This document shows, piece by piece, positions 4,724 to 23,144 of a stretch of DNA of 23,144 bases. Origin of the DNA: a virus; IMG/VR virus record IMGVR_UViG_3300000117_000258, positions 489 through 23,632 of that record. One strand, 5' to 3'. A model generated the notes under the pieces. The model was not told the origin of the DNA. It searched no databases and saw only the letters and a program-made list of their open reading frames with translations. Positions within the stretch are counted from its first letter, which is position 1, and every line of letters starts with the position of its first letter. A program made the translations under genes and the position numbers.

Positions 4724-6397
4724 GTGTTTCGATCTAATACAAATCCAATGTTCCGCTCAAAGTTTGCGGAAGATATCTTTAATCACAAGTACCGGCATGA
4801 AGGTGCAGAGACATTCAGCGAACTAGCGAAGACGCTGGTCGAGGATGTATGTCAGGATCACCTGACGGCAGACGAGAAGGAAACACTCACTGAGGCCATA
4901 GCTGCCCTCAAATTTGTGCCGGGTGGTAGGTACTTATATTACGCTGGGCGAGACAAGAAGTTCTTCAACAACTGCTATCTTCTCAAAAGCTCTGAAGATA
5001 CCCGTGAGTCATGGTCTAACCTTGCTTGGAAAGCTGCCTCCTGTCTGATGACAGGGGGTGGCATTGGCAACGATTACTCAGTGTATCGAGCATCTGGCAA
5101 CCCTCTAAAATCTACAGGAGGTACAGCCAGCGGACCCCTGCCCGCCATGAAGTTTGTCGATCACATTGGCGGCAGCGTTATGCAAGGTGGCTCACGGCGA
5201 TCTGCTATCTACGCCTCACTGAACCACAAGCACGGTGACATCGAAGAGTTTCTTACAGCTAAGAACTGGGATGAAATGCCTGTTGGTGACACCACTATGG
5301 CAGCGGCAAAAGAACAGGACTTTAACTTTAAGTGTCCGCTCGATCACACAAACATCTCGGTCAACTACGACACCGAATGGTTACTACGCTATTGGAACAC
5401 GGGAGAACTTGGAGACGTATTCACCAAGAATGTTGAACAGGCTTTACGCACTGCCGAGCCGGGATTCAGTTTCAACTTTTTCGATCAAGAAGACGAGACA
5501 GCGCGAAACGCTTGCACTGAAGTAACCAGCGCCAGCGATAGCGATGTATGCAACTTGGGCAGTATGAACCTTGGACGAATAGAGAATTTAGATGAATTAC
5601 GAACTATTACAGAGTTGGCTACGAAGTTCCTTATTTGCGGCACCCTTCGAGCAGAACTGCCATATCAGAAAGTATATGAAGTCAGAGAGAAAAATAGGAG
5701 ACTCGGGCTTGGACTTATGGGACTCCATGAATGGCTCATTAAAAGAGGCTCGAAGTACGAAGTTACACCGGAACTTCACCGTTGGCTGGGGATTTACCAA
5801 GGCGTATCTGATACTGTTAGCCGTTCTTTTGCTGACGCTCTGTCTATTAGCCGCCCTTGCGCCCGTCGCGCTATTGCTCCCACAGGCTCGATAGCAATCG
5901 TCGGAGGTACGTCCTCCGGTATCGAACCTATTTTCGCCGTTGCTTACAAGCGTCGGTATCTCAAAGGAAACAAAAGGTGGCACTACCAATACGTCATAGA
6001 TAGTGCCGCCCAAGAGATGGTGGAGCTATACGATGTTAAGCCTGACAGTATCGAGTCTGCACTCGACCTTTCGGAGGACTACGAACGCAGGATTAAGTTC
6101 CAATTCGACGTACAGAAGTATGTGGATATGTCGATTAGTTCGACAATTAATCTTCCGAAATGGGGAAGCAAACTAAACAACCCCGATACGGTCCAACCTT
6201 TTGCAGAAACACTAGCCAAATATGCTCACGGTTTACGAGGTTTTACCTGCTATCCCGATGGTGCCAGAGGTGGACAACCTTTAACACAGGTTTCCTATGC
6301 TGATGCTTTAGAAAATCTTGGCGAAGAGTTTGAAGAAGGTATCGAAGCGCATGATATCTGTGAGATCAGCGGTCATGGCGGTGTATGCAATGTATAA
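4724..6397 (+). CDS. nrdJ: Ribonucleotide reductase, probably class II (B12-dependent)
   Basis: Reduces ribonucleotides to deoxyribonucleotides for phage DNA synthesis. It has 557 residues; the GTG start follows AAAGGAG. Active-site residues are visible: C84 (FNNCYLLKS), the thiyl-radical region N262-x-C264-x-E266, and C276 in DVCNLGSMNL; C264 and its N-x-C-x-E setting match the radical cysteine and its partners, and C84 with C276 match the redox pair. Glycine-rich GGGIGNDYS and PTGSIAIVGGTSSGIEP loops also match the family. The tail CEISGHGGVC (C546, C555) is the expected re-reduction pair. No radical-generating beta subunit gene is adjacent, and related aquatic podovirus enzymes are adenosylcobalamin-dependent, so class II is preferred. 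Assignment to class I alpha is not fully excluded because a beta gene could lie outside the window. Confidence 0.9.
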   Translation: MFRSNTNPMFRSKFAEDIFNHKYRHEGAETFSELAKTLVEDVCQDHLTADEKETLTEAIAALKFVPGGRYLYYAGRDKKFFNNCYLLKSSEDTRESWSNLAWKAASCLMTGGGIGNDYSVYRASGNPLKSTGGTASGPLPAMKFVDHIGGSVMQGGSRRSAIYASLNHKHGDIEEFLTAKNWDEMPVGDTTMAAAKEQDFNFKCPLDHTNISVNYDTEWLLRYWNTGELGDVFTKNVEQALRTAEPGFSFNFFDQEDETARNACTEVTSASDSDVCNLGSMNLGRIENLDELRTITELATKFLICGTLRAELPYQKVYEVREKNRRLGLGLMGLHEWLIKRGSKYEVTPELHRWLGIYQGVSDTVSRSFADALSISRPCARRAIAPTGSIAIVGGTSSGIEPIFAVAYKRRYLKGNKRWHYQYVIDSAAQEMVELYDVKPDSIESALDLSEDYERRIKFQFDVQKYVDMSISSTINLPKWGSKLNNPDTVQPFAETLAKYAHGLRGFTCYPDGARGGQPLTQVSYADALENLGEEFEEGIEAHDICEISGHGGVCNV

Positions 6398-6889: not shown

Positions 6890-8464
6890 ATGGATTTAGG
6901 ATGCTCGTCTAGGTACAACAAACTTGAGACTAAGAGGGAGAGGTACTTAGACAGAGCTAGAGAAGTTTCAGAACTAACTATACCTGCTCTTCTCCCTCCA
7001 GAAGGCTTTACTTCAAGCACAGATTTATACACACCTTATCAATCTGTTGGTGCTAGGGGTGTAAACAATCTCGCATCTAAACTATTGATGCTTTTACTAC
7101 CTCCTAACGTACCCTTCTTTCGGTTAATGCCTGATAACGAAACATCTCAGGAACTTAACAACAACCCTCAAGTTAAGGCAGAAGTTGAAGCTGCCCTATC
7201 TAAAATAGAACGTGAAGTTATGGATGAGATCGAGGCACAGGCTATACGAGTGTCTGTCTTTGAAGCTCTCAAGCACCTGTTGGTAACTGGTAATGTACTA
7301 ATACATCTACCTCCATCAGGATCACTAAAGATATTTCCTATTACAAACTTTGTATGCCGCCGCGACCCCGATGGAAGAATCTTAGAAATCATTGTTAAGG
7401 AAATGGTTTCTAGGGAAGCTATGGGAGGTGTAAACCTTAACTCTGTAGAAGGTGCGGTAGATATACAGTTAGAGAACAGCTACACAAACTCTGACGATAC
7501 ACCCTTATTTACCAAGATAGTTAAAGTAGAAGACAGGTATCAGGTCTATCAAGAGATTGATGATGTTATTCTCCCTGACAGTTTTGGAGAATACCCTGCT
7601 GACAGTCTGCCTTGGATGGCACTACGTATGGTACGGGTGGATGGTGAAGACTATGGCAGAAGTTTCTGTGAAGAAGTGCAGGGAGACCTGAAGAGTCTCG
7701 AAGCATTGACACAGGCTCTGGTAGAGTTTGCTGCTGCTGCTTCTAAACTTGTTTTCCTAGTGAGACCAAATGCTACAACCCGCAAGAGTGACCTTTCTGA
7801 TGCTAATAACGGCGACGTTGTTACAGGTGATGTCAATGACGTAGCTGTCCTACAGACAAACAAATATAACGACATGCGTGTCGTACTAGATTCGGTCCAG
7901 CGTATTGAAGAACGCTTGAAATTTGTGTTTCTCCTCAACGAATCAATACAGCGAAACGCAGACCGGGTGACAGCGGAAGAAATCCGCTTCATGGCAGAAC
8001 AGTTGGAACAAAGTTTATCCGGCGTTTATTCTCTCCTTTCCGTCGAGTTTCAACTGCCTTTGGTAAGTGTCCTAATCAAACGTATGCAGTCTAAGGGACA
8101 AATACCAACGCTTCCTAAAGGTGCTGTAAGACCTGTAATAGTGACAGGCACCGCAGCATTAGGACGGGGCAATGACCTCCAGAAGTTGAAGAGTTTTCTC
8201 TCCGATCTTATTCAACTTACTGGAGCGTCACCCCAATCTATTCAAAGAATTAATACTGGTGATCTTATTAAACGTCTCGCAACGGGACATGGTATAGAAG
8301 TAGACGGACTTGTACGATCTGAGCAAGAAATGGCGCAGATGATGCAAATGATGCAGCAACAGCAACTAGCGCAGACAGCTATGCAAGAAGGCGTTAAAGG
8401 TGCTGCTGGTCCGGCAGCTAAACAAATGATTGAGTCTGGAGGACTAGCACAGAATGTCGAGTAA
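6890..8464 (+). CDS. Portal protein (head-tail connector), T7 gp8-like
   Basis: Forms the dodecameric portal ring at the unique capsid vertex through which DNA is packaged and ejected. It has 524 residues, close to T7 gp8 (536). Family features: N-terminal KLETKRERYLDRAREVSELTIP, the YQSVGARGVNNLASKLLMLLLPP segment, a central LEALTQALVEFAAAASKLVFLV, the ERLKFVFLLNESIQRNADRVTAEEIRFM region, and a Gln/Met-rich helical C-terminus (MAQMMQMMQQQQLAQ). AGGAG precedes the ATG at 6890. The last 11 bases overlap the following gene. Identification is secure. Confidence 0.95.
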   Translation: MDLGCSSRYNKLETKRERYLDRAREVSELTIPALLPPEGFTSSTDLYTPYQSVGARGVNNLASKLLMLLLPPNVPFFRLMPDNETSQELNNNPQVKAEVEAALSKIEREVMDEIEAQAIRVSVFEALKHLLVTGNVLIHLPPSGSLKIFPITNFVCRRDPDGRILEIIVKEMVSREAMGGVNLNSVEGAVDIQLENSYTNSDDTPLFTKIVKVEDRYQVYQEIDDVILPDSFGEYPADSLPWMALRMVRVDGEDYGRSFCEEVQGDLKSLEALTQALVEFAAAASKLVFLVRPNATTRKSDLSDANNGDVVTGDVNDVAVLQTNKYNDMRVVLDSVQRIEERLKFVFLLNESIQRNADRVTAEEIRFMAEQLEQSLSGVYSLLSVEFQLPLVSVLIKRMQSKGQIPTLPKGAVRPVIVTGTAALGRGNDLQKLKSFLSDLIQLTGASPQSIQRINTGDLIKRLATGHGIEVDGLVRSEQEMAQMMQMMQQQQLAQTAMQEGVKGAAGPAAKQMIESGGLAQNVE

Positions 8465-15358: not shown

Positions 15359-17634
15359 TGGCAGAAAGTAAAGGAACAGGTTTCCGAAAGAACCCTAATG
15401 CGAGAGGACTTAGTAACACAGGTTTACAAGCTCTTGGAATAGGTGAAGCACCTCAGTACAAAGCATCAATCCCCAGCATACCTGCGATGAGTGGTAAAAA
15501 CCTGCGGGTAGAGGACACGCCGCTAGGTAAAGTGTCTGCTCTGGCTAATGCTTTAGGTTCAAAACTAGAAACCTATCAACAACAAAATCAAAAAAAGTGG
15601 GCTAGTGAAGCTGCCTTAAAAGCTGATCGAATTATCGATGATCACATAGCTAAAGGCATGACGTTTGAACAGATCGAGAAAGCTCGACAAGCTGGCGACA
15701 TACCTGAATTAGATACTGTGCTACAGGAGCGGAGTTTCAATTTCGCTTTCGGTGCTGCATCAGCTACTAACTTCTTTACCACAGGAAAAGGTTCTGAAGA
15801 GTATCAAAAGTCTTTGGATGAGTACAAAAGCAAACCGTACAACGAGCGTTCTACTTATAACCATGAGCAAGTTATAGCTACTATTGCTAACAAGTTTAGA
15901 GATACTAACAATCAGAATTTAGACTTACTATTAGGTTCTTCTCAAGAGATATCTAAGTGGTCTACTGAAAAGAGAGCAGAGTTCTTAAAGGTCAAAGAAC
16001 AGTTAAACGACTCTGACAGAGTTCAAACTGGTTCTACATTTCTGCTTACCACCATGAATGATTTTACTAAATTAGATGCCGATGCAGGTAGGACTCTTGA
16101 TGATTATATAAACTCTTTTCACTCAAGATTTGAAGCCGCTCTCGATAAGTTTGGTGGAAATAACAACGTCCCTAAAGCGTATTACAAACAGATTAAGCTC
16201 AATACTTTTGAAAACTTTATTACAAAAGCTAGGGTAGATGCTAACAACGGTAAGATTGAGGACGCTATTAAACAGTACAGAGTTGTTATGCACGGTCTTA
16301 GTACAAGCGCGGGGGGATCGTTACCTAGATTGATAGATGATAGGTCTGTCTATACTACTCTAGGAAACACTGGAGAAACAGGTAATAGCATTGTCCAGAA
16401 CGAAGCCCAGAGATTGTACGCCACAGCGGAAAAGGCAATAGCTAAATTAGTAGATACAGACAACACTGCTGCTATAGCTAAACATGCTACCGATCTGATA
16501 ATGGCGGGACAAGAACCTCATTTTATGACCAGAGTAGAAGGCACAAATGTATCCGTAGAAGGCGTCAGCGCCAAACGTGATAAAGTTTTACCTCTAGTAA
16601 TCAATAGCGTAATTGCTCAAGTAAATGATCTAAAAGATGTAGATGGCAAACCCCTACCTTCTCTCAATAAGAAAATAAGAACCTTTGTAAACTTATCACG
16701 GATAGGAAAAGACGAGGGACTTCGTTTCTTTAAAGGTGAGTTCAATCAGCTTGAAGCTGTTCTAAGCGGTGGAGATAAGGAAGAAATATTCAAACACGTT
16801 TGGAACAATAATGGACAAGGCGGGTCTTACGAGACGTTTCAGGCTATGAAGCAGATCAATCCTACCTTAGTAGATTACTACCTTCCTCCAGAATCCCCTA
16901 TGCGACGGTTCTTTGAAACATTCAACGCACAAAGAGTAGCGGGTAAAATTAATGCTGATAATATCAAGGAACAATTACTGTTTACTTGGCAATCTTCAAA
17001 GAACAATACAGGTCTCGGTACAACTGAAAAGAAAACCATAGAAGATACTTTAGCATCAATTAATAACGACATTGCCAAAACAGGTAGCTGGGGAGATGCT
17101 GTAATCCCTCCGTATATGCGTGGCAGACTTGCTCAAATATTACAGTACAGAGCTAAATTTGTTTACCCAACCCTTGATAAGACAACCCTACAAGAAGCGT
17201 TAAAAGAAGATTTACTAGGACGCTTAGTAGGCTTTGAACATAAGGGTCAAGAGCATGTGCTTATAGCAAGGTCTCCAGAAAACCTACGTTTACTACAGGA
17301 CACCAATCTACCTGCATATTTAGGTGCAAAGCTAGAAGAGTTTGTAGTCCAAAACAAAATACCCAAAACAATAACCGGCGAACATGATGTAACTATTACA
17401 AACGATCCTATAAACGGAGATAGGTTTATGTTTGTACATAGAAACACAGGTCTTCCGATAGGTTTGGAGTATAAACTAAGTACAACCTCTTCCTTTATGA
17501 TTAATCCAAACGATCCTGCGGACTACATGGCAAAGGTTGCTTTGGAAAGAAACAAAAGAATGATTGGTAAGATTAAAGAGGCGGTGGAAGAAACAGAAGC
17601 CGCTTTAACTAAACCCATAGGTGCCAAGCAATAA
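15358..17634 (+). CDS. Internal virion protein C, T7 gp15-like
   Basis: A component of the inner core that is ejected into the cell and helps build the trans-envelope DNA channel. It has about 758 residues (T7 gp15: 747), is mostly helical and soluble, and has no membrane segment or enzymatic motif that I can see. Identification rests on size, order (gp14-gp15-gp16), composition, and N-terminal GTGFRKNPNARGLSNTGLQAL. ATG 15358 is chosen as start because it overlaps the upstream stop (TAATG) and has AAGGAG about 10 bases before it; a TTG at 15352 in frame would add two residues. Confidence 0.87.
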   Translation: MAESKGTGFRKNPNARGLSNTGLQALGIGEAPQYKASIPSIPAMSGKNLRVEDTPLGKVSALANALGSKLETYQQQNQKKWASEAALKADRIIDDHIAKGMTFEQIEKARQAGDIPELDTVLQERSFNFAFGAASATNFFTTGKGSEEYQKSLDEYKSKPYNERSTYNHEQVIATIANKFRDTNNQNLDLLLGSSQEISKWSTEKRAEFLKVKEQLNDSDRVQTGSTFLLTTMNDFTKLDADAGRTLDDYINSFHSRFEAALDKFGGNNNVPKAYYKQIKLNTFENFITKARVDANNGKIEDAIKQYRVVMHGLSTSAGGSLPRLIDDRSVYTTLGNTGETGNSIVQNEAQRLYATAEKAIAKLVDTDNTAAIAKHATDLIMAGQEPHFMTRVEGTNVSVEGVSAKRDKVLPLVINSVIAQVNDLKDVDGKPLPSLNKKIRTFVNLSRIGKDEGLRFFKGEFNQLEAVLSGGDKEEIFKHVWNNNGQGGSYETFQAMKQINPTLVDYYLPPESPMRRFFETFNAQRVAGKINADNIKEQLLFTWQSSKNNTGLGTTEKKTIEDTLASINNDIAKTGSWGDAVIPPYMRGRLAQILQYRAKFVYPTLDKTTLQEALKEDLLGRLVGFEHKGQEHVLIARSPENLRLLQDTNLPAYLGAKLEEFVVQNKIPKTITGEHDVTITNDPINGDRFMFVHRNTGLPIGLEYKLSTTSSFMINPNDPADYMAKVALERNKRMIGKIKEAVEETEAALTKPIGAKQ

Positions 17635-20600
17635 TGTCAGAGCTATTTAATGTTTTAAACGTAGAGCAAGACACATCCCTAGCACCTTCTCCAACAAACG
17701 ACATTACTAAACCTGCGGAGTTCCCTACCGATCTATCAGATAGGATCATAGAGCAGGATTGGCTTGTTCCTAATCTTTGGGAACTTGTTACTGAGGGTAC
17801 GGCTGAAATCGACCTGGATTTTAAAGCTACCCCAGAGATGTTTGATGAAGCTAAAGAACGTGGTGTCCTACCTCAAAACTTTAACGCCTTTGCAGATGTC
17901 CAGAACCAACAGGAGTGGGACAGGACCGTAGCGGATATATTAGAAGAGCAACAGCTTGCTACCGATCTATCCGAACATGGTTGGACAGGTACAGGTTTGC
18001 GTATTCTGTTAAACGTAGGAGACCCCGCACTCTGGATAACCAGCCTTGGTACAGGAACACTAGGTAGTATCGGTATTGCGAACAGGATAGGACAGGCTAC
18101 ACGCACTGGCAGAGTAGCTTCTATGGCAGGTGTCACAGCCCTTGAAGGAGCCGCCTTAGAAGGTGTTGTAAGCGCCAACAAGGAGACCCTGACAGCCTCT
18201 GACGCTATTCAAAACATTCTAATTACCGCAGCGGCGGGTGGAATTTTAGGAGGGTTAGGTGGTGCTTTAGGCCGGAAGCTGACGGATGTTGAGAATACAC
18301 AGTTTGTAAGACAGGCTGATGAAGCAGGTATAGACCTTACTCCACAACAACGTGAAAACCTCCAGCCAGCTAGAGGCAAGGTAGTAGACAACTCTTCGGG
18401 TCCAGATGCTGATCTAGCACCTACCGCAATGTCTCATATCAAATTACCTTTTACTGATTTCAAAATCCCTATTCGTTTCGATATGGGAAACAAAATGAAG
18501 ACCTCTCCTAGCCAAGTCATATCAACGAGGTTATCTCGGCTGGCGCAGGATGTTGTTGCAGATACCAGCGGAGGAAAGGTCAACAAGATAAGTGCTACGG
18601 AACTAGGAGATAGACTGTACCAGACATGGCACGGCAGTTTCGGTGCAGAGTTATTTGTTCTTGAGAAACAGTTTCGCAACGAAGCAGGTACTCGTTTCTT
18701 AGGTAATGAAAGGGAACTGTTTGGACAGCTTACTGAACAAGCTGTAAGGCGCGAAGGAGACACGTTTGTAGATAGCTTAGACGACTTAAACGATGTGCAA
18801 AAAAAGCTAATCAAACAGTCAAGAGACTCGTATCGAAAGATGATGAGAATGATCCTGCAAGACCTCAAGGACGCAGGAGTAAAGAATGCAGATGAGATAG
18901 ACTTTAACGATCTGTATGTACCTCGCCGCATTTCTGTCAGTAAGCTAGGACAGATGATTGAAAAATCTGGTGGAGAAGAAAACTTCATAGATTTCGTATC
19001 ACAAGCGTACCTGTCAAAGCCCAGAGGTTTGAAGCTGGACGAAGCTACTGCAAGAGCTATGGCACGTATGTATGTAAAAGGTATTAAACGCGCTCACGCT
19101 GGAACCGCTGCCAACTTTGGGCAGGTATCCAAACAGAACATTGATGATGTCCGTAAGTTCTTCGATGAAGAAAGGGCTATGTATGGTGGCACTGAATATA
19201 CTGAAGAGATGTTTGAAACTATTAACGCTTTACTATCAAAGAAATCTACAAAGGGTAGTAATCTCAGCCGTAGAATAGACATCGATGAAACCTTTGAAGC
19301 AGTCGTAAACGGCAACAAGATACGCATGGAAGACCTGTTCGATAGCAATGCTTATTCAGGAATGGATAAGTACACTAGAGAAATGTCAGGCAAAATAGCT
19401 GCCGCAAGAGTGCTTAATATTACAGATGACACAGAGTTTGATGCTTTAATACGGGAGGCAAAGGAAGAAGTTCTACCGGGACACGCGGACTACAACCGGA
19501 TACAACGAGACGTTAAACGTGCAGAAGTTATGTACCGATCCCTGACAGGCAAACCTTTGCATGATAGGTCCGGTCCTATGAACACGTTTACGCAACTACT
19601 TCTCGACTACAATTATATGCGTGTGATGAACCAAGTAGGTTTAGCACAGTTATCGGAGTTTGGTAACGTCGCTTCTCTAGGTGGCTGGAGAGCTATGCTA
19701 CAAAACATGCCAGCACTAAGAGCAGTTCAAAGGGATATGGCGTCTGGTCAGATAACGGATGACGCTGTTCTTAGAGACTTTGAATCCTTGACAGGCATAG
19801 CTACTGACTGGGTTAGGTACGCTTCTGTTTCGGAAAGATATACCGGAACTTCAGGAGGTGAAGTAATAGGCAGTAACCTTACAGCCGGTCAAAAAAAGGC
19901 TTTAGAGATTGGTGTAAAAGGCAAGAGAATTACGAGCGTTATATCAGGTATGACACCTATCACCATGTATTCTCAAAGGTTGGCGGGTAAAACCTTTATA
20001 GGAAAGCTAGGCACCCTCTCTAATAAAACTCTAAAAGAAAGTGACCGTAGGAATTTTAGAGAGGTAGGCTGGTCAGATCAAACCACTGACAAGATTATGG
20101 GCCAATTAAGGAAAGCTACTTTTCATAAGGGAAAGTTAACTGATCTGAATATGGAAGACTGGCCTGTGGACTTACGAGAGGAGTTTGCCAACGGTCTATA
20201 CAGGTGGACAAACCGTGTTATCCAGACCAACGACATAGGCGCGACGGGTTACTGGATGACCACACCAATCGGTAAAGTGTTATCACAGTTTAGAACCTTT
20301 ATGCTTGTTTCATATGCTAAACAAACTTTACAAGCACTTCACCGAAGAGACTTTGCACACTTTTCAGCTTTTATGACCACATCTTTAATAGGTGGTTTAA
20401 CGTACATGGGACAAACCTACTTACGCACTGCTGGTGAAGACCCTGAATTATTTGATTTAGACAAGGTGGCTCTTGCAGGTTTTCAGAGAGGTGCATACGC
20501 CTCGCTTATACCGGGACTTATGGATGGCAGTTTAGAATTTATAGGTCTTGATCCTGTGTTCTCAAAGTACGGTAGAAGCACAGGAATGGCTTCAAGCCTG

Positions 20601-20768
20601 TGGTCAGGAAACCCCACAATTTCCTCTATAGATAAAATAGCAGATTTAGGAAAACTACCTTTTAAGATAGCTACCCACTCAGATACAGAAGGTAGTGATT
20701 TTATAGATTGGATGCCCTACCAGAACGCTTTGTTCATTAATACTTTAGCGGATCAATTAACAAAATAA
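17634..20768 (+). CDS. Internal virion protein D, T7 gp16-like, no transglycosylase domain seen
   Basis: The largest ejection protein, with 1044 residues against 1318 in T7 gp16. T7 gp16 begins with a lytic transglycosylase domain of about 150 residues; I see no such catalytic Glu motif in the N-terminal region here, so the cell-wall enzyme may be missing or supplied elsewhere. A hydrophobic Gly/Ala segment, NILITAAAGGILGGLGGALG (about 194-213), and a preceding ALWITSLGTGTLGSIG are possible membrane-inserting parts. C-terminal PIGKVLSQFRTFMLVSYAKQ and HFSAFMTTSLIGGLTYMGQT match the gp16 family end, where DNA transport motor function is mapped. It starts in a TAATG overlap. After its stop lies the 41-base fibre leader. 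Confidence 0.88.
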   Translation: MSELFNVLNVEQDTSLAPSPTNDITKPAEFPTDLSDRIIEQDWLVPNLWELVTEGTAEIDLDFKATPEMFDEAKERGVLPQNFNAFADVQNQQEWDRTVADILEEQQLATDLSEHGWTGTGLRILLNVGDPALWITSLGTGTLGSIGIANRIGQATRTGRVASMAGVTALEGAALEGVVSANKETLTASDAIQNILITAAAGGILGGLGGALGRKLTDVENTQFVRQADEAGIDLTPQQRENLQPARGKVVDNSSGPDADLAPTAMSHIKLPFTDFKIPIRFDMGNKMKTSPSQVISTRLSRLAQDVVADTSGGKVNKISATELGDRLYQTWHGSFGAELFVLEKQFRNEAGTRFLGNERELFGQLTEQAVRREGDTFVDSLDDLNDVQKKLIKQSRDSYRKMMRMILQDLKDAGVKNADEIDFNDLYVPRRISVSKLGQMIEKSGGEENFIDFVSQAYLSKPRGLKLDEATARAMARMYVKGIKRAHAGTAANFGQVSKQNIDDVRKFFDEERAMYGGTEYTEEMFETINALLSKKSTKGSNLSRRIDIDETFEAVVNGNKIRMEDLFDSNAYSGMDKYTREMSGKIAAARVLNITDDTEFDALIREAKEEVLPGHADYNRIQRDVKRAEVMYRSLTGKPLHDRSGPMNTFTQLLLDYNYMRVMNQVGLAQLSEFGNVASLGGWRAMLQNMPALRAVQRDMASGQITDDAVLRDFESLTGIATDWVRYASVSERYTGTSGGEVIGSNLTAGQKKALEIGVKGKRITSVISGMTPITMYSQRLAGKTFIGKLGTLSNKTLKESDRRNFREVGWSDQTTDKIMGQLRKATFHKGKLTDLNMEDWPVDLREEFANGLYRWTNRVIQTNDIGATGYWMTTPIGKVLSQFRTFMLVSYAKQTLQALHRRDFAHFSAFMTTSLIGGLTYMGQTYLRTAGEDPELFDLDKVALAGFQRGAYASLIPGLMDGSLEFIGLDPVFSKYGRSTGMASSLWSGNPTISSIDKIADLGKLPFKIATHSDTEGSDFIDWMPYQNALFINTLADQLTK

Positions 20769-20809: not shown

Positions 20810-22297
20810 ATGGCTTTTGCACTCGTCAGGAGTACCGCTGACGGTAACAATACCCCTGTGACTTTAGGATTTAGCTACAGGAATACAGCGGATATTGTTG
20901 TTAAAGTAGCAGGTGTAACTAAAACTCTGACGACCCATTACACATTTCCTACTAGCAACACTATTGCGTTTACCTCGGGTAATGTACCTACAAACGGTCA
21001 GGTAATTGAAGTACGAAGACTAACCTCACATAGCGCACGTTTAGTAGACTATGTTGCAGGTGCTACGCTAACTGAAATAGACTTAGATACAGACAGCGAA
21101 CAAGCCTTCTTTATGGCTCAAGAGTCGCTGGATGTGGCTAACGACTCTATTACGCTAAATGCCTCTGATGTGTATGAGGGAAGTAATAAGAAGATTAGCA
21201 ACATTGCTGATCCTACGAGCGCACAGGACGCTGCAACTAAAGCATATGTGGATTCTAATATATCCAGTGGTGCTACCAATGCAGCTAGTGCGGCTACATC
21301 CGCTACTGCTGCCGCTGCCTCTGCTACTTCTGCAAGTTCTTCAAGTGCTACGGCTACCACAAAAGCGTCAGAAGCGGCGACGAGCGCCACTGCTGCTGCG
21401 GCAAGTGCCACATCGGCCACAGCATCGGCAGCAAGTGCCACGGCGGCAGCGGCCAATGCTGCGGCGGCGGAGGTCACGATAGCCAGTCAGGCTGAAGCAG
21501 AGGCGGGAACGAACAACGCCAATTCGATGACGCCGCTGCGAACAAAGCAGGCGGTTGATTCTTACGGGTTGCTTGCTTCCAACAACCTGTCTGACGTGAC
21601 CGCATCGACGGCCCGAACGAATCTTGGACTCGGAGACGCAGCTACAAAAACGGTTGGCACAAGCAACGGAAATGTCATTGCCGCAGACGCCACGGGTATT
21701 CCCGCAATCAACGGCTCGCAAGTCACAGCACTCAATGCCAGCAATTTGGCGAGCGGCACCGTCCCAACCGCACGGCTTGGCACCGGCACGGCATCGTCAT
21801 CTACTTTCCTCCGAGGCGATGGAAGCTGGCAAGCGGCGGGCGGCGGCAAAGTCGTGGCATACTCGAATACACACGTTTCAACTGACGCGTCGACAACCTC
21901 AACATTTCCGGACGATGACACAGCGCCGGGCTCCAGTGAAGGCGCAGAATATACAACGTTCACGCATACTGCCGCCTCGGCATCGAACAAAATCCTGATT
22001 CAGGTCATCGCGCAAGCAGCGACAAGTGGGGTTGTTGTTCCTGTCTTGGCGCTGTTCAAAGATTCTGGTTCAACCGCTGAGAGAACCACTTTTGAGGAAA
22101 CTCACGGGAATGGCCCCGTCATGATGACGCTTCAGCACCTCGACACCGCCGGATCGACGAGCGAAATCACCTATAAGTTGCGATTCGGATCGAGTGGCAA
22201 CACGGGCACTGTTTACCTTGGAAGCCAGCATCATTCTGGGGGTCGATGGGCTGACACTGGCGGCGTCAACATACAAATTTGGGAACTCGAAGCATGA
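20810..22297 (+). CDS. Tail fibre, T7 gp17-like N-terminus with chimeric distal part
   Basis: Recognises the host surface. It has 495 residues. Residues 1-150 form the T7 gp17-type tail-attachment domain (TLTTHYTFPTSNTIAF, VIEVRRLTSHSARLVDY). Residues 152-223 are an Ala/Ser/Thr stalk. Residues 241-290 contain TPLRTKQAVDSYGLL and NNLSDVTASTARTNLGL, modules common in fibres of many phages. The C-terminal third (KVVAYSNTHVSTDAS to HSGGRWADTGGVNIQIWELE) is a beta-rich tip. Base composition changes within the stalk near 21370 from A/T-leaning, GCT-type Ala codons to GC-rich GCG/GCC codons, pointing to a domain swap. AAGGAAA precedes the ATG. It is likely trimeric, by analogy. Confidence 0.9.
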   Translation: MAFALVRSTADGNNTPVTLGFSYRNTADIVVKVAGVTKTLTTHYTFPTSNTIAFTSGNVPTNGQVIEVRRLTSHSARLVDYVAGATLTEIDLDTDSEQAFFMAQESLDVANDSITLNASDVYEGSNKKISNIADPTSAQDAATKAYVDSNISSGATNAASAATSATAAAASATSASSSSATATTKASEAATSATAAAASATSATASAASATAAAANAAAAEVTIASQAEAEAGTNNANSMTPLRTKQAVDSYGLLASNNLSDVTASTARTNLGLGDAATKTVGTSNGNVIAADATGIPAINGSQVTALNASNLASGTVPTARLGTGTASSSTFLRGDGSWQAAGGGKVVAYSNTHVSTDASTTSTFPDDDTAPGSSEGAEYTTFTHTAASASNKILIQVIAQAATSGVVVPVLALFKDSGSTAERTTFEETHGNGPVMMTLQHLDTAGSTSEITYKLRFGSSGNTGTVYLGSQHHSGGRWADTGGVNIQIWELEA

Positions 22298-22608
22298 CCA
22301 AAATAAGCACAGTTTTGACGTGGAAACATCCGACGACACCATGGTCAATCCGAGACAATATCGTCGTCGAGTTCGAGGGCGGCGTCCCGTCCGCTGAAAC
22401 GCTTGCAACTTGGACCGCCGAATACGAGGCGGCGAAGCCGTGGGCAGATTTGCGGGAAGAACGCGACCGCCGTCTCGCCGAATGCGACTGGTGGGCGAGC
22501 AGCGATCTGACGATGAGCGACGAGCAGACGGCGTACCGCGCAGCCCTACGTGACTTTCCGGCAACAGTCGATCTGTCGAACATTGTATGGCCGGAGATCG
22601 ACGATTAA
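22294..22608 (+). CDS. Phage tail assembly chaperone-like protein
   Basis: A 104-residue protein. The C-terminal half, LREERDRRLAECDWWASSDL followed by TMSDEQTAYRAALRDFPA, is a signature of the small tail assembly chaperone family found beside tail-fibre genes of many long-tailed phages and prophages. ATG 22294 overlaps the fibre stop (ATGA), so the two are coupled, which fits a role in folding the fibre tip. Presence in a T7-like phage is unusual and agrees with import of the whole distal-fibre cassette. GC-rich codons match its neighbours to the right. Confidence 0.82.
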   Translation: MTKISTVLTWKHPTTPWSIRDNIVVEFEGGVPSAETLATWTAEYEAAKPWADLREERDRRLAECDWWASSDLTMSDEQTAYRAALRDFPATVDLSNIVWPEIDD

Positions 22609-22610
22609 AA

Positions 22611-22979
22611 ATGAACTCAATTGACCCGTCGCTTGTTGTCACACTGCTAGGCATGCTCGTTTCAATCGTGAGCGCGGCGGCAATTGTCCGGCAAAAACTT
22701 GCGGCGGTCATTGAGCAGATGAGGGACATCGAAACGCGACTACGAAAGCTCGACACGCGCTTCGATAAATCCGAGGTGCATCAATCAACGACCGAGCAAC
22801 GGGTGTCGGTGCTGTCCACCATGCTGTCACCAGAGCGGCGTCAAGTATTACACGAACGCCTCGCGACAATGGAGTCCCACTGCGAGACGTTGCGGCGCGA
22901 CGTGAACACGTTACAGCACATGCATAATGGTCGGCATCCAAGTGTGCCACCAGTTGAAAAGGTTGAGCATGATGATTGA
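22611..22979 (+). CDS. Membrane-anchored coiled-coil protein, possible holin or spanin-type lysis protein
   Basis: A 122-residue protein with one N-terminal hydrophobic segment, LVVTLLGMLVSIVSAAAIV (about residues 8-26). It is followed by a long charged helix with heptad-like spacing (MRDIETRLRKLDTRFDKSEV to LATMESHCETLRRDVNTLQH) and a His/Pro-rich tail. Location directly before an endolysin suggests a lysis role. One membrane segment with a large soluble coiled coil is not typical of a classical holin, so an i-spanin-like or other accessory role is equally possible. ATG 22611 is two bases after the previous TAA; its stop overlaps the endolysin start. Confidence 0.72.
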   Translation: MNSIDPSLVVTLLGMLVSIVSAAAIVRQKLAAVIEQMRDIETRLRKLDTRFDKSEVHQSTTEQRVSVLSTMLSPERRQVLHERLATMESHCETLRRDVNTLQHMHNGRHPSVPPVEKVEHDD

Positions 22980-23144
22980 CTGGCAGCGCTACCCCAATTT
23001 TTCCGAGAGCGAATTCCGATGCCGCTGCGGATGCGAGGCGTTCGTTTGCGATGTCGAATTGCTTGAGGTGTTGCAGTCTGTACGAACTGCATTTGGCAAG
23101 CCGATGAAAATAACGTCGGGCTACCGCTGTGAAAAGCATCCAAT
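22969..23144 (+). CDS. Endolysin, peptidase M15 family (3' truncated)
   Basis: Cell-wall peptidase expected to cleave peptide cross-links at lysis. The visible 58 residues read MMIDWQRYPNFSESEFRCRC and continue to KITSGYRCEKHP. The Cys-rich FRCRCGC near the start, LLEVLQSVRTAFGKPM, and SGYRC-x-x-H are hallmarks of the M15A type; the His is the first zinc ligand. The remaining ligands lie beyond the window. ATG 22969 or 22972 may start it; both lie inside the end of the preceding gene. GC-rich codon use fits the imported block. Confidence 0.9.
   Translation, partial: MMIDWQRYPNFSESEFRCRCGCEAFVCDVELLEVLQSVRTAFGKPMKITSGYRCEKHP

Follow-up and report, generated by a model that had tools for sequence, protein, structure and literature searches.

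A tail fibre of probable mosaic origin in an uncultured marine T7-like podovirus

The tail fibre of an uncultured marine T7-like podovirus is very probably a mosaic, in which the native receptor-binding cassette gave way to one from a second podovirus lineage. We analysed a window of 23,144 nucleotides, the whole stretch of DNA that represents this phage (hereafter W). The window covers positions 489–23632 of a 23,632-bp record and, given that record length, ends where the contig ends. Comparison of sequences directly established the lineage affinities of the parts of the fibre, the position at which they switch, the near-identity to a donor and a further, independent swap that involved the same pair of lineages. 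According to this interpretation, the W fibre would have retained its own virion-attachment domain and Ala/Ser/Thr stalk, and the replaced cassette would consist of a connector, a jelly-roll-like tip and the cognate chaperone.

The fibre gene and the lineages compared

The fibre of W is preceded by genes for helicase, DNA polymerase A, ribonucleotide reductase, portal, capsid, nozzle and internal virion proteins, and is followed by a PF16778 tail-fibre chaperone, a small gene and a truncated M15 endolysin (Table 1). It lies directly 3′ of the internal virion proteins, which is the T7-like order of a gp17-like gene. The PF03906 domain and the gene order both fit, and the fibre is of the T7 type. 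The replication region contains a ribonucleotide reductase barrel domain (PF02867) at 4724–6397. Several single N bases are present at ~210–490 of the record (L018), 5′ of the window, and none inside it.

We compared W with two groups of contigs. Lineage A comprises L004, L008 and the more distant L092 (66% DNA identity in the N-domain); lineage B comprises L005, L002 and L022, the last of which is shorter and matches L005. Over several kilobases 5′ of the stalk, W was ~72% identical in DNA to L004 and L008. An earlier sequence-only reading had called the attachment domain typical of this phage, which agrees with its 86–87% amino acid identity to L008 and L004; identity to pelagiphage fibres was 44–51%. 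The fibres of L005 and L002 begin with MSITVNAVHRRVQY and lack PF03906. The internal virion proteins adjoining them belong to phrog_6651, as opposed to phrog_342 in W, and a blastp search of the W protein against the L005 and L002 proteins gave no match. The attachment domain and the tip of the W fibre matched different phage groups, A and B. The same reading had described the tip and downstream genes as foreign, which the matches to L005 (99.7% over 22034–23030) and L022 (100% over 22142–23144) supported. L002 was 75% identical to W in DNA over 21494–22538.

Table 1. Positions of the features in the window
Feature	Position	Strand	Evidence
Internal virion protein, lineage A backbone, 5′ of fibre	17634–20768	+	phrog_342, E=1e-109; 80% aa to L004 and L008
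Tail fibre gene, 495 aa	20810–22297	+	PF03906 Phage_T7_tail, residues 4–153, E=3e-35, above gathering score
N-terminal virion-attachment domain, lineage A	20810–21262	+	86–87% aa to L008/L004
Ala/Ser/Thr stalk, first half	21263–21374	+	GC3 0.24, lineage-A composition
2-unit support interval of GC3 step	21338–21458	+	Codons 177–217; best 21374
Ala/Ser/Thr stalk, second half	21375–21487	+	GC3 0.59
Conserved block QAEAEAGTNNANSMTPLRTKQAVDSYG, A-type by protein; lineage switch at block end	21488–21568	+	82–88% aa to L004/L092; 62–71% to L002/L096/L099/L101/L108
Connector LLASNNLSDVTASTARTNLGL...FLRGDGSWQAAGGGK, donor type	21569–21841	+	First 18 aa (following DSYG) 100%/94% to L099/L096, 6% to L004/L092
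C-terminal tip domain, ~151 aa	21842–22294	+	86–94% aa in seven contigs (other backbones or fragments); 55–62% in two more
Segment 99.7% identical to lineage-B contig L005	22034–23030	+	3 mismatches
Segment 100% identical to lineage-B contig L022, to contig end	22142–23144	+	1003 bp
Tail fibre assembly chaperone, travels with tip	22294–22608	+	PF16778 (Phage_tail_APC), E=2e-11; 100% aa to L005/L022
Small gene in lysis region, lineage-B version	22611–22979	+	100% aa to L005/L022; 31–34% to lineage-A versions (L004/L008/L092)
M15 peptidase endolysin, lineage B, truncated by contig end	22969–23142	+	phrog_894, E=6e-18; 100% to L022

The lineage switch and the composition step

At the protein level, W was A-like through the block AEAEAGTNN..MTPLRTKQAVDSYG and donor-like directly after it. 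The W block, AEAEAGTNNANSMTPLRTKQAVDSYG, carries the A signature (RTKQA, NN-x-N), and the 18 residues following DSYG are those of the donor type (Table 1). Because the diagnostic residues change from A-type to donor-type at DSYG, the switch falls at ~21545–21568, outside the Ala/Ser/Thr stalk. This placement is clear, though the sample is not large (the block in two A-type fibres and in five of other lineages). The codons for KQAxDSYG, which are common to all compared lineages, contain the switch, and the N- and C-terminal fibre parts have different nearest lineages.

Overall GC was 0.40–0.45 upstream of ~21250 and 0.55–0.58 from there to the contig end. Raw GC overstates this change, as Ala codons are GC-rich, and we therefore tested GC3. 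Within the fibre, GC3 rose from 0.33 to 0.57, with the maximum-likelihood step at codon 188 (window 21374), and none of 2,000 synonymous-codon shuffles matched the observed step score. The sequence-only reading had reported an abrupt change in base composition and codon choice near 21370 with the frame unbroken, and both points held: the step was located at 21374 (support 21338–21458) and the 495-aa reading frame is intact across it. Its placement of the lineage seam there, in the low-complexity stalk, did not hold, as the diagnostic residues put the seam after the non-repetitive block. An exchange between lineages in the fibre and a composition step in the stalk both stand, therefore, but a lineage switch in the stalk does not. 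The GC3 step lies ~190 bp upstream of the protein switch (~21566), a distance by which composition alone can misplace a junction. None of L004, L008 and L092 had uniform composition across the whole fibre; each has its own GC3 step, beyond its stalk, and a different tip. The GC-rich stretch stops after the chaperone in these three relatives and reaches the contig end in W.

A GC3 step could also arise through codon-usage selection in the tip domain, with no recombination at all, and distal GC3 is indeed ~0.55 both in W and in relatives on other backbones. We consider this explanation highly improbable, given that the upward step is absent from distant N-domain relatives and that lineage affinity switches along the fibre. 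The L022 and L005 matches refute it for the tip, provided that they are not themselves chimeras, and the occurrence of near-identical tips on unrelated backbones led us to reject pure codon selection.

A single junction at 21566 fitted the composition 6.7 log-likelihood units worse than one at 21374, and a single event therefore does not explain everything. In the Ala/Ser/Thr run (codons 155–221), codons ending in G or C numbered 9 of 37 in the first half and 23 of 39 in the second (Fisher p = 0.003). Measured against the stalks of the three lineage-A relatives, codon use was typical in the first half (p = 0.69) and atypical in the second (p = 0.0003; z = 3.5 for A/S/T codons alone). Given this non-A composition of the second half, a second, mid-stalk junction is possible. 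The tip may have come from a GC-rich phage in which an A-type stalk and block were already joined to a B-type tip, such that the recent join lies in mid-stalk (~21374) and the switch at DSYG is an older, inherited join. We regard this history as a serious contender, somewhat short of an even chance. It would account for a support interval that leaves out the DSYG position and for a block that, like the second stalk half, departs from A composition (p = 0.001) despite its A-type protein. However, no such donor was found: a search with a 27-bp pattern spanning the composition step detected no other contig, a protein search with the stalk and conserved block matched L004 only, and neither revealed a relative with the same DNA in the second stalk half. 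Long common words were not found either, and this half is short (39 codons) and repetitive, such that local codon drift could mimic the pattern.

If true, a mid-stalk join with a GC-rich A-type donor would partly vindicate the sequence-only reading. Its suggestion that the Ala/Ser/Thr repeats are a hot spot for exchange was not demonstrated: words common to the stalk and the loci compared at that stage did not exceed 14 bp, and the swap between L004 and L169 described below has its left edge at the same non-repetitive block. Internal repeats were rejected as a recombination substrate, as the longest exact repeat inside the stalk was 11 bp.

The donor segment and the edges of the cassette

The connector is very widespread in marine viral contigs. 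Related sequence (NLSDV..TRTNLGLGDAATKTVG..NGSQVTALNASNL.SGTVPTARLGTGTASSSTFLRGDGSWQ) occurs in at least 242 viral stretches, some of them short fibre genes that lack an N-domain (L003, L008 and L026). At 8001–11935 of L008, the distal fibre is apparently split into short connector-first genes that follow a 294-aa anchor-plus-stalk protein. The tip is probably a trimeric jelly-roll head, as judged from a structure model with a mean pLDDT of 60; Foldseek matches of the C1q/Pgp3 kind were weak, and a resemblance to the C1q and Pgp3 trimer heads is only a lead. The tip had no match among the 50,697 phage records of an isolate collection and no relative in the genome contigs.

Over 21842–22033, W, L005 and L022 share the tip but differ in its alleles, mostly synonymously. 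L005 and L022 are identical to each other for ~900 bp (W 20969–21869) before and ~500 bp after a tip tract of ~270 bp (W ~21869–22140), in which they differ by ~20%; here a short stretch of the tip has been replaced by another allele. The full-length endolysin copy in L005 is PF08291 Peptidase_M15_3, and the W endolysin had no match in L004, L008 or L092.

The contig might instead be an assembly chimera of reads from two phages, with the join most plausibly at 22034–22141, the interval in which identity of W with the L005/L022 population sets in. Consistent with this, the 1003 bp at 100% identity to L022 stop exactly at the W contig end, and W has lineage-B lysis genes that its A relatives lack. 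However, the A-to-donor switch (21566) precedes every identical segment, with no long shared words there, and a join at 22034–22141 would itself require the true tip of W to have exact words in common with L022. The L004/L169 pair (80% amino acid identity), which shows an exchange of the same kind, cannot be a read-level chimera. This indirect evidence is mixed, and we consider a chimera unlikely. The run of W past the chaperone into the B lysis genes would reflect either an exchange of greater extent or, with low probability, an assembly switch inside the L022-identical segment.

L004, of lineage A, and L169, of lineage B, have a different tip in common, 80% identical over 546 aa, with chaperones that are 79% identical. 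Their similarity starts at L004 codon 253, at the same block and the same place as in W, and stops at the chaperone stop, beyond which L169 returns to 93% identity with L005. Because this pair shows these edges, A–B exchange is real and not only an assembly chimera; it is recurrent, with consistent edges. In L168, L169, L170 and L171, similarity to W begins at the chaperone stop, the right edge of the cassette. From the L004/L169 edges together with this one, we conclude that tip plus chaperone is the usual exchange unit, with concrete edges at the conserved block on the left and the chaperone stop on the right.

For the replacement of the native cassette in W, which we favour, the most likely route would be co-infection and then homologous recombination through the conserved block, which both lineages carry and which most likely provided a short left homology. 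The right edge usual in the wider family is the chaperone stop, and in this contig the donor sequence runs on into the small lysis-region gene and the endolysin. Selection may have acted on the new receptor-binding tip and its matching chaperone, presumably with a change of receptor. More tentatively, several unrelated marine podovirus lineages might draw on a common pool of tip-plus-chaperone cassettes through one docking block (AEAEAG...DSYG plus connector), with W also recording a very recent transfer that included donor lysis genes; we think this possible but doubtful.

Comparison with known fibre exchanges

In T7-like fibres, the N-terminal anchor (~140 aa) is conserved and the C-terminal receptor-binding domain has been acquired by horizontal transfer (PMC7693777). 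W is similar in keeping its PF03906 anchor and having a C-terminal part from another lineage. It differs in that its lineage is uncultured and marine, its small tip is without a match in the isolate phage collection and its seam was placed by sequence alone. Frequent replacement of the fibre C-terminal domain has also been described (PMC10386132). Receptor-binding domains are swapped between conserved flanking motifs (PMC10408124), and distal fibres of T-even phages by recombination at conserved motifs (Tetart et al. 1998, as cited in PMC10408124). The exchange in W resembles these swaps in having its left edge at a conserved block and its right edge near the end of the downstream gene, but here AEAEAG...DSYG plus connector forms the block, and the exchanged unit includes the chaperone. 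As in systems with a fibre tip and a cognate PF16778 chaperone, the tip and the chaperone next to it vary together in L004/L169 and L005/L022; unlike such a unit, the foreign segment in W extends past the chaperone. A literature search on co-transfer of tip and chaperone found nothing more specific. W is an ordinary modular exchange of a receptor-binding domain, the principle of which is long established. The cells to which a phage can attach change when its fibre tip is exchanged, and such an exchange between uncultured marine phage lineages is visible here at base resolution.
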